From positions 1 to 32,833 of the forward strand of contig JANYEQ010000091.1 of assembly GCA_025363015.1 (NCBI GenBank): a stretch of 32,833 bases of DNA, in the 5' to 3' direction. The notes beneath the pieces are model-generated. The model saw nothing but the letters and a program-made list of their open reading frames with translations. It searched no databases and was not told the origin of the DNA. Position 1 is the first letter of the stretch; the number at the start of each line of letters is the position of its first letter. The position numbers and the translations under genes were made by a program. Source of the DNA: Bacteroidota bacterium. Its GTDB lineage: Bacteria > Bacteroidota > Bacteroidia > B-17B0 > Aurantibacillaceae. This document shows positions 8,807 to 15,258 of the stretch, in pieces.

Positions 8807-11800
8807 TTATTTTATTAAAGCTACATGCCCTACTAACTCATGGTTTTTATGAAACACATCAACCACTTCAGCTTTCCAAACGTATACATCTTGTTTAATA
8901 GGTTCACTACTTCCTTTGGTATTTCCATCCCATTCGGTATCAATATCATTTGTTTCAAATAATAAGTGCCCCCAACGATCGTAAATTTTTATATTAAACT
9001 TGGCAATACCAACACCTTTTGCTGAAAAACCATCGTTAACGCCATCGCCATTTGGCGTAAACGTATTTGGTATATATACCACAAACGAAGGTTTAATTTT
9101 TATGATGGCCGAAGTAGTATCGGCACAACCAAATTGGTTTTTTACAACCTGAAAAATTATAGGGGTAGCTTTATCAATATTAGTTAAGGTATGGTTAAAA
9201 TTTGGAGTGCCAAAGCTACTACCATCATTAATAAAGTAACTTGTAGCCGCTGCACCAGTGGCAATAGAAGTTACTGAAATAATAGGCTCGTTTTCGTCAA
9301 CCTCATCAGGTTCTACTTTAAAACTTGCAATTGGTAACGGATGAACAACTACAAAATTAGGTTGAGTTAAAGTAGTTATACAACCACTATCGCTTACTAA
9401 TTTTAAAGTAACATTATAATTACCTGTATTATAGCAATGCGTTGGGTTTTTGATATAATTAGGTAAACTACCATCGCCAAATTGCCATTGATAAGTAACA
9501 ATATTACCCGTTGCAATAGTTGAATTATTATTAAAATTAACACATAAGCTTGGGCAACCTATTTTGTTTTGTGCTGTAAATATAGCTTGTGGTTTTGGGT
9601 TAACATATATTGCTTTTGATTTTACATTACTGCAACCGTATTGTGTTTGTACTTCTAATTTAACTAAATAAACGCCATTTGAAGTATATGTTAAACTAGG
9701 GCTAGCAATTAAGTTATCAATAATTCCATCGCCATTAAAATCCCATTGATTACTACTTATAGCACCATCGCTACTAATTGATAAATTTGTAAAAGCGGTT
9801 ACATCACCCAAACAACTTGATTTTGCTGAGAAATTTGCAATTGGGTTAGCATGTACAATTGCTGTATTTATTTTTGTAGAAGTACATTGATAATTACTAA
9901 CGGCTTGCAACTTGCAATTAAAAACACCACTTGTTGGATATACTTTACTAGGGTTTACGCTTATTGTATCATCCCAAATACCATCGTTTTCAAAGTCCCA
10001 ACGCCATTTTGTAATCGTACCGCTATTTATAATTGTAGTGTTATTATATTGAGTGGCCTGGTTTACACATGCCATGTTTGAACTAAAATTTACGTTTGGT
10101 AAATAATATACGTTTACTGTTGTACTAAATGTATTACTGCAATTAAAGTTAGAAACTGCCGTTAATTGTACTGTATAGTTACCTGGCGCAGAATAATTTA
10201 ATTGAGGATTAGTTTGAGTAGATTGAACTGAGTTTCCAAAATTCCAATTATAATTTGTTAAACTATTACCGGTTACAATTGTGCTTTGGCTTGTAAATGT
10301 GGATGTACCTCCAAAACAAGTATTATTTGCTGTAAACGAAGCTGTTGGATTTGCGTTTACAATAACGTTTAATGTTGCGTTACTTATACAATTATTATTA
10401 CTAACAGCTTGTAGGTTTACAATATAATTGCCTGCACTTGGATATATAAAAGTAGGGGCTTGGGCATTACTATTTGGAATCCCATTATTATCAAAATCCC
10501 AAATCCAATTAGTAATGTTGCCACTACTTATAGTGCTTAAATTATTAAAGGCAGTAGCAATACCATAACACACAGGGGCAGCATTAAAATTTAATACGGG
10601 TAATGGAAATAATGTTACACTATTTGTTGTAGAGGCTATACAACCCTGATTACTTGTTGCTGATAGGGTAACATTATATGTTCCAGCTGTAGAATAATTA
10701 AAAGAGGGATTTGTTTGGGTTGAAGTATTACTGGTGCCAAAATTCCAATAATAATTTGTAATAACGCCATTTGAAATACTACTATTATTTGTAAAATTTA
10801 CAGCCGAATTTAAGCAGGTATTATTTGTACTAAAATTTACTGTTGGATAAGGATAAATAGCGATGTTTTGAACAGCAGTATTACTACAACCTTTACTAGA
10901 CATAGCAATTAAGCTTATGGAATAATTACCAGTACTGGCAAAATTAATAATTGGGTTGGTTTGAGTACTTGTTAATGCTCCAAAATTCCAGTTATAACTA
11001 GTAATTACACCGCTACTAATACTTGATGTGTTAGTGAAAGTATATTGCTGCGCACAGGCACTTGCAGCAGCTATATTAAATGAAACTATAGGATTTGGAT
11101 AATTATTTAATGTATAAGTAAACTCAGGCCCTACACAGCCCGTAACCAAAGTTGTTTGGCAAGTATAAATGCCTACCGCAGTGCTATTAATACATTGATT
11201 TGTATTGTTTATAATGCCTGGGCCATTCCAAACATAAGTGCCAAAACCATTTGGTGCACAATAATTTTTAGTTGCTCCTATGCAAACTGTATCGCTACTA
11301 CCTCTTACAAATGCTGCACAAATACCGTCAATATAAGCATAGCCAAAATGCCCACCCAAAGCACAATCGTAGGTTGTAAAACGAATGGTAACATTTTGTC
11401 CAATATAATTTGTTAAATCTACTACAACATTTGTCCAAGGTTTGTAAATAACGCCTGCAGTATTTGGTGAGTTAAAAAATCCTGGAATATTACCACCAGC
11501 TGCAACATTATAAAATGTACAAGGTATTTGTAAACCGTTAGTATCTAGCATTTCTACAGTAAATGCTGGTTGTTGGCTTGCTGTATGCCCTGGGTCTTGA
11601 AAAACTACAGCATATTTATATGTAAAATTGGCATTAGTTGCGCTTACTAAAAAGGTTTGTTCAATTCTATCCGCCTCACCGCCGTTAATATTATTACCTA
11701 AACGTAAAGAGAAATTTCCACCAGGCGAAACCACTGGAAATCCACCCAAGGCATCTACTGCCGTGCCCGACAATATGGTTTGTTGCCCACCAGGTGTAAG

Positions 11801-12160
11801 GCAGCAACCTATTGGATTAAATAATGGATGAAAGCCTGAAGTAGGTATCCAGCCATTGTAATTGCCATTTTCGAAATCAATATTAATACATCCACCCGCA
11901 AGTGTTGAGTTTTGATTGAAAGCAATTGGTTTTAAATTTGTGTTTGTGCTGTGATGTGTGTGCGAGTGGCACATTTGCTGCGAAGAAATAAATTCTTTTT
12001 TTTCGAGAGGGTTTAAATGCAGCTTTTCGGAATAAGAATTCCAAAACGATTGGTTAAAAGGTGCAGTATTATCAATAGCAATACTGTTGTTGGTTTGAGC
12101 GTAAGTTATTGCTTGAATAACTATGCCAAACACGGCGATTAAGTAAATTTTTGTTTTCAT
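8807..12160 (-). CDS. Large PKD-repeat surface protein with T9SS type B (gliding-type) sorting domain
   Basis: A 1117-residue exported protein, probably an adhesin or matrix protein. A signal peptide spans about 1-21 (ending TYAQ). Residues of about 90-290 form a jelly-roll/MAM-like module (starting CINIDFENGNYNGW; ending YAYIDGIC). After this come seven PKD-like repeats of 80-95 residues, each with a C..(8-12)..F/Y..T/N..S start and a W-(D/N)-F centre; several centres (DFDNNGI, DFENDGI, DFNGDGI) look like calcium loops. A further degenerate repeat leads to the C-terminal type B domain: YIPNTFTPNGDGVND, IKIYDRWGHLLFE, TEWDGN and DVYVWKAEV. This domain is the classic tail of large surface proteins sent through T9SS. 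A terminator follows the gene. Confidence 0.9.
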   Translation of the reverse strand: MKTKIYLIAVFGIVIQAITYAQTNNSIAIDNTAPFNQSFWNSYSEKLHLNPLEKKEFISSQQMCHSHTHHSTNTNLKPIAFNQNSTLAGGCINIDFENGNYNGWIPTSGFHPLFNPIGCCLTPGGQQTILSGTAVDALGGFPVVSPGGNFSLRLGNNINGGEADRIEQTFLVSATNANFTYKYAVVFQDPGHTASQQPAFTVEMLDTNGLQIPCTFYNVAAGGNIPGFFNSPNTAGVIYKPWTNVVVDLTNYIGQNVTIRFTTYDCALGGHFGYAYIDGICAAFVRGSSDTVCIGATKNYCAPNGFGTYVWNGPGIINNTNQCINSTAVGIYTCQTTLVTGCVGPEFTYTLNNYPNPIVSFNIAAASACAQQYTFTNTSSISSGVITSYNWNFGALTSTQTNPIINFASTGNYSISLIAMSSKGCSNTAVQNIAIYPYPTVNFSTNNTCLNSAVNFTNNSSISNGVITNYYWNFGTSNTSTQTNPSFNYSTAGTYNVTLSATSNQGCIASTTNSVTLFPLPVLNFNAAPVCYGIATAFNNLSTISSGNITNWIWDFDNNGIPNSNAQAPTFIYPSAGNYIVNLQAVSNNNCISNATLNVIVNANPTASFTANNTCFGGTSTFTSQSTIVTGNSLTNYNWNFGNSVQSTQTNPQLNYSAPGNYTVQLTAVSNFNCSNTFSTTVNVYYLPNVNFSSNMACVNQATQYNNTTIINSGTITKWRWDFENDGIWDDTISVNPSKVYPTSGVFNCKLQAVSNYQCTSTKINTAIVHANPIANFSAKSSCLGDVTAFTNLSISSDGAISSNQWDFNGDGIIDNLIASPSLTYTSNGVYLVKLEVQTQYGCSNVKSKAIYVNPKPQAIFTAQNKIGCPSLCVNFNNNSTIATGNIVTYQWQFGDGSLPNYIKNPTHCYNTGNYNVTLKLVSDSGCITTLTQPNFVVVHPLPIASFKVEPDEVDENEPIISVTSIATGAAATSYFINDGSSFGTPNFNHTLTNIDKATPIIFQVVKNQFGCADTTSAIIKIKPSFVVYIPNTFTPNGDGVNDGFSAKGVGIAKFNIKIYDRWGHLLFETNDIDTEWDGNTKGSSEPIKQDVYVWKAEVVDVFHKNHELVGHVALIK

Positions 12161-12581: not shown

Positions 12582-13232
12582 TTATTTTTTACGAGGCCCT
12601 AAAACCATTTGCATACGTTTACCTTCTAATACTGGTAATTGTTCGGCTTTTCCCCATTCTTCTAACTCATTAGCAAAGCGCAATAATAAAATTTCGCCTT
12701 GTTCTTTAAATACAATCTCACGTCCTCTAAAAAACACAAAGGCTTTTACTTTACAACCTTCTTGTAAAAATTTAATGGCGTGGTTCTTTTTAAAATTAAA
12801 ATCGTGGTCATCAGTATGTGGACCAAAACGAATATCTTTAATTACAATTTTACTGGCTTTGGCTTTTACTTCCTTAGCTTTCTTTTTTTGTTCATATAAA
12901 AACTTACCGTAATCAACAATTTTACAAACTGGTGGGTCAATATTTGGCGCAATTTCTACTAAATCTAATTCTAAATCTTTTGCCATTTTTAAAGCTTCGG
13001 CAATTGAATACACACCGGCTTCTATATCATCGCCAACAACACGTACTGTTTTAGCATAAATACGATCGTTTATTTTATGTAATTCTTCTTTAACACCTGG
13101 GCGTTTAAATCCAATTTTTAATCCGCGTGGTTGTTTAAATACAGGTTTTTCGCCAGGTTTTACAACTGCTGGTTTGTTAGCATTGTTAACATTTGGTTTT
13201 GGCGCAAAATAGGGCTTTTTTTGATTGTTGAT
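12582..13232 (-). CDS. infC: Translation initiation factor IF-3 with non-AUG (ATC) start
   Basis: IF-3 binds the 30S subunit, prevents subunit joining and rejects wrong start codons. The frame is open from 13253 and has no ATG, GTG or TTG before the middle of the N-domain. The first GTG (13013) is the Val of a conserved [10 protein letters not shown] segment and would remove a third of the N-domain. A GGAGGT Shine-Dalgarno (13242-13237) lies 4 nt before ATC at 13232. This start gives 216 residues: a Lys/Pro/Asn-rich extension (1-45), the N-domain (about 50-118, [15 protein letters not shown]) and the C-domain with [12 protein letters not shown] and the end [10 protein letters not shown]-3 genes in other bacteria start with AUU or a similar codon so that IF-3 can repress itself; the same is inferred here. 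It follows thrS by 21 bp. Confidence 0.9.
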
Positions 13233-13236
13233 GTTG

Positions 13237-13242
13237 ACCTCC
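13237..13242 (-). promoter_or_regulatory. Strong Shine-Dalgarno of infC
   Basis: GGAGGT on the minus strand, the only strong Shine-Dalgarno I see before a gene in this window, where other starts have A-rich leaders. It fixes the infC start at the ATC codon 4 nt downstream. Confidence 0.75.
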
Positions 13243-13253
13243 GTTTTTTTAGT

Positions 13254-15206
13254 TTATACTGTTGTTATTTGTTTTTTAAAATCGTTTGTAATTATATTAT
13301 TTACAAATTTAATAAATTCATCAATACCAAATACACCACTATCGCCTTTTCCATGTTCGCGAAGGGCAATTTTTTGCTCGGCTTCTTCTTTTTCGCCTAC
13401 AATTAGCATAAATGGTATTTTTTTAATTTCGTTATCGCGTATTTTTTTACCAATTTTTTCGTTTCTATCATCTACAAAACCGCGTATATCTTGTTCTGCC
13501 AATAACTCTTTTACTTTATGGGCGTAATCATTATATTTTTCGCTTATTGGTAAAATGGCAAACTGATCGGGCGTTAGCCATAATGGAAAATTACCGGCAC
13601 AATGCTCAATTAAAACGGCAATAAAGCGCTCTAAGCTGCCAAATGGTGCACGGTGTATCATTACTGGGCGATGTTTTAAATTGTCGCTACCTGTGTATTC
13701 TAGCTCAAAACGCTCGGGTAAATTGTAATCTACTTGTATGGTGCCTAATTGCCATTTACGGCCTAAGGCATCTTTTACCATAAAATCTAATTTAGGGCCG
13801 TAAAAAGCGGCTTCTCCAAGCTCTGTAACTGTTTTTAAACCTTTTTCGGCAGCGGAATCAATAATAGCCTGCTCTGCCAAAGCCCAGTTTTCATCGCTAC
13901 CAATGTATTTACTTTTATTTTCAGGGTCGCGTAAACTAATTTGAGCAGTGTATTCTTTAAAATCTAACGCATTAAACACGTGCAACACTAAATCAATTAC
14001 TTTTAAAAATTCTTCTTTTACTTGGTCGGGCCTACAAAATAAATGGGCATCATCTTGTGTAAAGCCACGTACACGCGTTAAACCGTGCAATTCACCAGCT
14101 TGTTCGTAACGATAAACGGTTCCAAACTCGGCATAACGAACAGGTAAATCTTTATAGGATTTAGGCGATGCTTTGTAAATTTCGCAATGATGTGGGCAGT
14201 TCATTGGCTTTAAAAAAAACTCTTCGTTTTCGCGAGGTGTTTTTATGGGTTGAAACGAATCTGCACCATATTTTTCGTAATGACCAGAGCAAACGTATAA
14301 ATCTTTTAATGCAATGTGTGGCGTTGCAACAGGTAAATATCCTGCTTTTAATTGTGCCTTTTGCATAAATTGTATTAAACGTTCGCGCAAAGCGGCACCT
14401 TTTGGTAACCACAAAGGTAAGCCCATGCCTACTTTTTCGCTAAAAGTAAAAAGTTCTAATTCTTTACCTAACTTGCGGTGGTCGCGTTTTTTAGCTTCTT
14501 CTAAAAGGGTTAAATATTCTTTTAATTCTTTATCTTTTGGAAACGTAATACCATAAATACGTGTTAATTGCTTGTTTTTTTCGTCGCCACGCCAATATGC
14601 ACCTGCCACGCGTAATAACTTAACCGCTTTTATAAAGCCAGTATTTGGAATGTGAGGCCCACGGCACAAATCGGTAAAATTACCTTGTGTGTAAAAGGTA
14701 ATGGAGCCATCTTGCAAGCCATCAATTAATTCTAATTTATAAGGGTCGGCTTTTTGAGTAAAATAATTTATGGCATCTTGTTTAGAAATTTCTTTACGAA
14801 TAAATTCACTTTTTTGCGAAGCGAGCTCCATCATTTTGGTTTCTACTTTTTCAACTTCATCAATCGAAAACACTTTATCACCAAAATCAATATCATAATA
14901 AAAACCATTTTCAACAGCAGGCCCAATAGCAAATTTACTACCAGGGTAAAGGCTTTCTAAGGCCTCGGCCATTAAGTGGGCAGATGAGTGCCAAAGGGTT
15001 TGTTTACCTTCGGTATCATTCCAGGTTAATAATTGTAAGTGGCTATCGCTGTTAATAGGTCGGTTAGAATCCCAAATTTCGCCGTTTACTTTTGCCGCTA
15101 AAACGTTACGTGCTAAGCCTTCGCTAATGCTAATGGCTATTTGATGAGAAGAGGTTCCTTTTTCGTATTCGCGAATAGAGCCATCGGGTAATGTAATTTT
15201 AATCAT
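13254..15206 (-). CDS. thrS: Threonine-tRNA ligase
   Basis: Charges tRNA-Thr in the cytosol. The 650 residues contain all four expected parts: TGS domain (1-62), editing domain (about 65-225) with HSSAH (His73, His77) and CRGPH (Cys181, His185), class II core (about 240-535) with the zinc ligand Cys337 in MNCPHH and motif 3 in [11 protein letters not shown], and the anticodon-binding domain (about 540-640). The ATG at 15206 follows a small leader that carries a hairpin resembling a tRNA-Thr anticodon arm, described separately. It is the first gene of a two-gene operon with infC. Confidence 0.97.
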
Positions 15207-15212
15207 AAGGTT

Positions 15213-15236
15213 AATCCTACTTACAACGTAGGGATT
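15213..15236 (-). promoter_or_regulatory. thrS leader hairpin resembling the tRNA-Thr(UGU) anticodon arm
   Basis: On the minus strand the thrS leader contains CCTAC-GTTGTAA-GTAGG (15232-15216): a 5-bp stem with a 7-nt loop. Three more pairs (AAT/ATT) extend it past one bulged C. Numbered as an anticodon arm, the loop has U33, UGU at 34-36 (a threonine anticodon) and A37-A38. The hairpin ends 9 nt before the thrS ATG. In E. coli ThrRS represses its own mRNA by binding an anticodon-arm mimic just upstream of the ribosome site; the same role is inferred here. Confidence 0.6.
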
Positions 15237-15250
15237 TTTAATTTAAGCAT

Positions 15251-15258
15251 TAAAGATA
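15251..15258 (-). promoter_or_regulatory. Possible -7 element of thrS
   Basis: TATCTTTA on the minus strand differs from TAnnTTTG only in the last base. It would place the transcript start about 38 nt before the thrS ATG, so that the hairpin makes up most of the leader. No -33 TTG was found. Confidence 0.35.

Follow-up and report, generated by a model that had tools for sequence, protein, structure and literature searches.

A tRNA-Thr anticodon-arm mimic upstream of thrS as a probable translational operator of threonyl-tRNA synthetase in Bacteroidota

The operator of Escherichia coli thrS is the classic example of gene regulation by tRNA mimicry, and the question raised by the present locus is whether a small hairpin situated just before thrS in a member of the Bacteroidota serves the same end. 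E. coli threonyl-tRNA synthetase (ThrRS) is described as binding anticodon-like hairpins in the leader of its own mRNA and thereby blocking the 30S subunit, and a change of the anticodon-like bases to those of methionine is described as placing the gene under the control of MetRS (PMC7373986, PMC9976931, PMC11088916). A first-pass annotation of the DNA analyzed here, a stretch of 32,833 nucleotides hereafter called the window, proposed autorepression through such a mimic and knew of no description in Bacteroidota; likewise, no description of a thrS operator in this phylum was found in the open-licence literature that we searched. From the comparison of leader sequences presented below, we consider it very probable that ThrRS represses its own translation via an anticodon-arm mimic and that the hairpin would be the operator.

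The hairpin was found as claimed, with a 5-bp stem, a 7-nt loop, U33, the triplet UGU and A37-A38, and it ends 9 nt before the thrS ATG (15206-15204, minus strand). On that strand, the 5' half of the stem occupies 15232-15228, the loop 15227-15221 and the 3' half 15220-15216, and the loop is numbered G32 U33 U34 G35 U36 A37 A38; the GU at positions 35-36 of the triplet is the part that is constant among relatives. The other features of the region are collected in Table 1. No other such arm is present within 250 nt upstream of thrS in the window, even when stems of 4 bp are admitted. Comparable hairpins in the 32.8-kb window are few, five on one strand and none on the other for 7-nt loops, and two and none, respectively, for 8-nt loops, so that a chance origin of this single sequence would be only mildly improbable. 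Folding of the 121-nt stretch around the arm revealed no unusual stability (z -0.63) because a hairpin of this size is not conspicuous in such a fold.

Table 1. Positions of the thrS leader elements and adjoining genes in the window.
Feature	Position	Strand	Description	Basis
Likely promoter -7 box	15251..15258	-	TATCTTTA	Sequence; box enriched in family leaders
Arm with three further A-T pairs	15213..15236	-	A-T pairs lie beyond a bulged C; span given in the first-pass annotation	Sequence of the window alone
Anticodon-arm mimic	15216..15232	-	5-bp stem CCTAC/GTAGG, 7-nt loop GTTGTAA	Sequence, covariance-model match, covariation
Anticodon-like triplet	15223..15225	-	UGU (34-36) in the loop	Sequence
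Spacer from arm to start codon	15207..15215	-	AT-rich, 9 nt	Sequence; 7-15 nt in 58 family leaders
thrS	13254..15206	-	Threonyl-tRNA synthetase, 650 aa	TIGR00418, 720 bits; aligned to E. coli ThrRS 1qf6
infC	12582..13232	-	IF-3, next gene downstream of thrS; probable ATC start at 13232-13230	Start inferred

Judged from the sequences of relatives, the arm is more than a product of chance. The genomes searched for ThrRS numbered 40 for the genus and 87 for the family, and the leaders of the resulting loci were read; 63 own-family leaders were used, thrS having been matched in 74 genomes of the family. The hairpin is thus not missing in close relatives: 58 of the 63 leaders carry it, and the five that do not belong to genus g3 (four) and genus g8 (one). 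These armless leaders (L101-L104 and L106) represent natural controls for thrS expression. The stem is built from 11 different pairings in the 58 leaders. It is fully paired on the 54 distinct leaders (100% of 270 cells), a percentage biased toward structure because the rows were chosen for having the hairpin, yet 58 of 63 leaders qualified. The covarying stem that the first-pass annotation had proposed to look for is found in these leaders. Cells changed on both sides number 41 versus 11.5 in shuffles, and the covariation score is 0.493 versus 0.257, both values lying above all 500 shuffles; when slid, the score reaches at most 0.130. Two of the five measures are not clearly above the shuffles, that is, the number of pairs with changes on both sides (four of five versus 2.6, reached by 44 of 500) and the number of further pair types (7 versus 6.6, reached by 272 of 500).

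A covariance model composed of the arm, the spacer and the first six coding bases was also searched against the 87 family genomes at E values up to 0.5. Sixty-eight genomes were matched, each exactly once, and 19 had no match; all 68 matches sit at the start of thrS when their positions are compared with those of the ThrRS search; since the model includes the thrS start, this result shows that the whole element is unique, not that arms are missing elsewhere. In the window, the match spans 15201-15236. Ten of the 68 matched genomes had contributed no row to the training alignment. One of the 74 genomes with a thrS match (G069) is without the 5' end of the gene, and the element is therefore present in 68 of the 73 family genomes in which that end is present.

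The constraint on the loop was read from 407 unique Bacteroidota thrS leaders with a rule demanding U33, a stem of at least 5 bp and a 7- or 8-nt loop. The leaders come from 441 loci after exclusion of identical sequences, those shorter than 130 nt and N-rich ones, and loci whose tblastn match starts after residue 3 had been excluded beforehand. GU occupies positions 35-36 in 205 of the 407, compared with 14 for the next dinucleotide, although the leaders are related by descent and the counts are not independent events. Twenty dinucleotide-preserving shuffles yielded a mean of 3.95 and a maximum of 10 leaders, while stretches inside the gene, which served as a coding control, yielded 0 of 232. 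When one base was freed at a time, the 205 leaders stood against 11 for the next base at position 33, 12 at position 35 and 14 at position 36. The concern that the search is circular, hairpins being picked for their GU, is countered by the comparison of 16 dinucleotides, the shuffles, the internal coding stretches and the one-base-free counts. Base 34 of the 205 arms is U in 175, A in 14, C in 12 and G in 4, and base 37 is A in 169, T in 32 and G in 4, so that A37 is not universal. The anticodons for threonine have the form NGU, in which position 34 cannot serve as an identity base. A free base 34 together with fixed U33, G35 and U36 would be explained if the reader is ThrRS, which must accept every NGU anticodon. 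The loop, then, does not vary freely at positions 33, 35 and 36, and position 34 varies like the wobble base of tRNA-Thr.

Two tRNA-Thr genes occur among 29 tRNA matches in the genome. The anticodon arm of tRNA-Thr(UGU), ACTGA-TTTGTAA-TCAGT, has the loop of the leader arm at six of seven positions, the sole mismatch being position 32, and a different stem. The leader stem equals that of tRNA-Thr(GGU), whose arm is CCTCC-TTGGTAA-GGAGG, in four of five pairs, which may be a coincidence given the variable stems in relatives. The proposed mimicry of tRNA-Thr(UGU) thus stands with respect to the loop, but the mimic is one of threonine tRNA generally (NGU) and not of the UGU isoacceptor specifically. 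On the protein side, the thrS product is the presumed binder and repressor acting on the arm. It aligns nearly over its full length with E. coli ThrRS (1qf6), and its R590, E607 and R616 align to Arg583, Glu600 and Arg609, which are named as binding residues (PMC6430810). By this alignment, the residues that bind the E. coli arm are conserved in the enzyme of the window.

Beyond the window's own family, the arm was found in named loci of Pedobacter, Mucilaginibacter, Olivibacter, Sphingobacterium, Algoriphagus, Echinicola and Cyclobacterium, some of which may be the same genomes as other loci in the set. Over the 70 nt shown, L095, a leader of family f36, does not differ from the leader of L200, a named Mucilaginibacter locus, and f36 is therefore called Sphingobacteriaceae here; leaders from 90 of its 91 genomes were used, one (G509) being left out because it starts at residue 174. 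Of these 90 leaders, 81 have a proximal arm, typically AATCAT-AGTTGTAG-ATGATT, with the start codon lying in the 3' strand of the stem; where the start is GTG, in two leaders, a G-U pair preserves the stem. The 3' strand is coding, and its constancy is partly due to the protein; the 5' strand, AATCAT, is non-coding. A second, distal arm passes the strict rule in 62 of the 90 leaders, a count that includes L373, with an arm at -177 that possibly arose by chance. The distal arm lies mostly 50-63 and sometimes 80-96 nt before the start, and its base 34 is U in 43, A in 12, C in 4 and G in 3. Some distal arms, read by eye (L371, L388, L402, L410, L414, L417, L421 and L440) have C, A or G at position 33 and keep GUA at 35-37, and U33 therefore seems less strict than G35-U36. 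Neither arm was found in nine leaders, although four of them (L442-L445) show, by eye, a weaker single arm with a 4-bp stem. The 7-nt loop first annotated in the window is not general, 107 of the 205 arms having an 8-nt loop, and Sphingobacteriaceae mostly have two arms.

The distribution in the remaining lineages is patchy. In family f19, 18 of 25 leaders pass the rule, and several of the seven that miss it carry, by eye, similar arms broken by a mismatch; the stem of the f19 arms (L080-L093, L476-L491) is longer and imperfect, and the loop mostly has 8 nt. In family f14, the arm is present in 15 and absent from 15 of the 30 leaders read, these being the 30 of 59 genomes most similar to the window ThrRS, and some f14 leaders match named Cyclobacteriaceae-type loci. 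Eight Cyclobacteriaceae-type leaders (L447-L450, L452, L454, L460 and L461) have in common, in the interval from arm to start codon, a ATGTTTCAT stretch that is perhaps a second element. Among 60 leaders sampled from further families (19 from the same class and 41 from the rest of the phylum), the arm is absent from 56; four pass the rule with weight 11 and six without a weight limit, and of those passing, L295 and L307, both from the same class, look convincing while the rest resemble chance matches. Outside the own family, 246 genomes of the class were searched and 79 leaders read, from the higher-scoring matches listed, and for the phylum, 60 leaders of 218; an order-level survey of genomes at least 90% complete added nothing, as all 65 belonged to the window's family. 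On a FastTree phylogeny of 85 ThrRS sequences, kept from 243 after thinning at 86% identity, the arm label needs 10 changes, compared with 23.7 in shuffles, and well-supported branches force at least 7 of the 10. Arm-bearing sequences are clustered on this tree, yet there were several gains or losses, and the tree does not tell which. Such a patchy distribution indicates that ThrRS does not need the arm.

Conserved hairpins in leaders can have other functions, and the surroundings of the arm bear on several of them. Of the 58 family leaders, 50 have a TAnnTTT[GA] box, which we take to be the Bacteroidota -7 consensus, no more than 45 nt upstream of the arm, compared with 11% in mononucleotide shuffles, and 36 of these 50 boxes end at a distance of 14-16 nt from it; in Sphingobacteriaceae, 55 of 62 leaders have a slightly looser box ahead of the distal arm, a count without a shuffle baseline. 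With boxes just upstream, the first arm would be near the 5' end of the mRNA, and from its sequence the thrS mRNA of the window is predicted to start near 15244 and to have a 5' UTR of about 37 nt. An inverted repeat so close to a likely -7 box might be a DNA operator for a transcription factor adjoining the promoter, but the letters of the repeat vary with compensation among the 11 stem pairings, the non-palindromic UNGU between the repeats is fixed, which is the opposite of a protein-DNA palindrome, and in Sphingobacteriaceae the repeat takes in coding sequence, all of which makes this explanation highly improbable. Proximity to the predicted 5' end would suit a general leader hairpin that stabilizes the mRNA end, acts as an insulator or covers Shine-Dalgarno-like bases, its loop sequence being incidental. 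All 58 family leaders have AGG, GGG or GAG in the 3' strand of the stem, which is overlapped by a Shine-Dalgarno-like tetramer in nine; the window is one of these, its only such bases (AGGA) overlapping the stem. No such tetramer was found in the spacer of any of the 58, and a weak Shine-Dalgarno sequence may lie inside the stem. Against a general hairpin, however, there is constraint against every alternative base at loop positions 33, 35 and 36, the spacing of stem and AUG ranges from 7 to 15 nt, which is ill suited to Shine-Dalgarno pairing, and folding gave no excess stability, so that we allow it only a very slim chance. Our confidence in a ThrRS operator is very slightly lower on account of these Shine-Dalgarno-like bases and of the two measures of covariation that do not exceed shuffles.

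The remaining alternatives concern what is read and to what effect. thrS is a T-box target in other organisms, and a tRNA-reading leader of this type was considered for the present locus. At the gathering score, Rfam reported two tRNA genes in the window and nothing else, and the loop carries the anticodon itself and not its complement, the codon; a T-box riboswitch, with its specifier codon, T-box sequence and antiterminator, was rejected on these grounds, and the likelihood of any T-box-like leader is close to nil. The arm might instead bind ThrRS as an activator or a protector of the mRNA, and the present data bear on recognition, not on the sign of the effect. Human TARS1 is described as reading UGU, or CGU instead, in loops of the VEGF and ANG 5' UTRs and as raising translation of these target mRNAs (PMC6430810). 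As described there, the likeness consists of a UGU loop read with the same three residues, and the difference is that the human enzyme acts in trans without self-control. A positive role is nevertheless a slim prospect for thrS because the arm overlaps the initiation region, and a start codon inside the stem, as in Sphingobacteriaceae, can hardly aid initiation while bound.

Repression by ThrRS, the reading that we prefer, would proceed as follows. The thrS mRNA probably starts a few nucleotides upstream of the arm, and free ThrRS in excess over tRNA-Thr would bind the arm via its C-terminal anticodon-binding domain and recognize G35 and U36 in the way it reads them on tRNA. From its site at about -10 to -26, ThrRS would deny the 30S subunit access to the start codon and lower thrS translation, which would resume when abundant tRNA-Thr titrates ThrRS away. 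In Sphingobacteriaceae, where there are mostly two arms and the AUG lies in the proximal stem, ThrRS binding would lock the start codon directly. Initiation in Flavobacterium johnsoniae is described as tuned by structure near the start codon, and Bacteroidota as lacking Shine-Dalgarno sequences, with adenines upstream of the start also tuning initiation (PMC6847099). Given initiation of this kind, an enzyme bound upstream of the AUG or on it seems a plausible block. The autorepression reading thus gains support from the arm and its location at thrS, the covariation of the stem, the constraint on the loop and the conserved synthetase residues, from which we infer binding, competition with the ribosome and tRNA, and repression.

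Domains 2 and 4 of the E. coli thrS operator mimic the anticodon arm of tRNA-Thr, and the K-12 leader holds GTGATCT-TTCGTGT-GGGTCAC (the pairing is ours). The operator is described as having four domains and a bipartite ribosome site (PMC11088916, PMC3858243). Like the window, it places an anticodon-arm mimic with NGU upstream of thrS, and its two arms have a parallel in the 62 Sphingobacteriaceae leaders with a distal arm, although in these, unlike in E. coli, the proximal stem includes the start codon. A single arm is present in the window, and none of the 63 own-family leaders has two at the usual threshold. Nor does the window have the Shine-Dalgarno sequence in a single-stranded domain 1 or the split ribosome site; in their place are the short predicted leader, an arm close to the AUG and a spacer free of Shine-Dalgarno sequence. 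Because of the missing second arm and the missing Shine-Dalgarno domain with its split site, the window leader was not filed as an E. coli operator, though by analogy it may work like one. Anticodon mimicry in synthetase mRNAs extends to yeast, where the second of two studies reportedly concerns HisRS. Yeast AspRS is described as recognizing an anticodon-like arm in its own mRNA (PMC9976931), and the second case appears in PMC6542539. The yeast systems resemble the one proposed here in that a synthetase reads an anticodon-like arm in its own mRNA, and differ in the enzymes, the eukaryotic nature of the mRNAs and the placement of the arm.

It seems likely that the mimicry in Bacteroidota arose independently of that in E. 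coli and took a one-arm form and a two-arm form in which ThrRS locks the AUG; the separate origin is suggested by the distribution within Bacteroidota, the phylum that the survey covered. A second operator of the E. coli kind would offer a natural comparison of control with and without Shine-Dalgarno initiation, and cultured genera that carry the arm are at hand in Pedobacter, Mucilaginibacter, Sphingobacterium and Algoriphagus. The one-arm leader would be a minimal RNA for structural work, and the changing base 34 beside the fixed G35-U36 might serve as an evolutionary read-out of threonine tRNA identity.

Several minor observations concern other genes of the assembly. The apparent ATC start of infC lies behind a GGAGG five bases upstream (13230-13242, minus strand). 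A non-AUG start is here paired with a Shine-Dalgarno sequence, although such sequences are rarely used in the phylum, and a CGGAGG-like stretch is also found downstream of thrS in several loci of the genus; this arrangement suggests autocontrol of IF-3 via the rare start codon of infC. The same assembly contains a second thrS-infC pair (L002, G000:C87:55998-60034), in whose leader no arm was seen. The ThrRS it encodes is 53% identical to that of the window and 75-81% identical to those of four genomes of family f32, and no second full-length thrS was found in the other 39 genus genomes searched; contamination or horizontal gain is possible. Further downstream of thrS, at 8807-12160 on the minus strand, the window encodes a 1117-aa protein that contains numerous PKD domains and carries a CHU_C type IX secretion signal.
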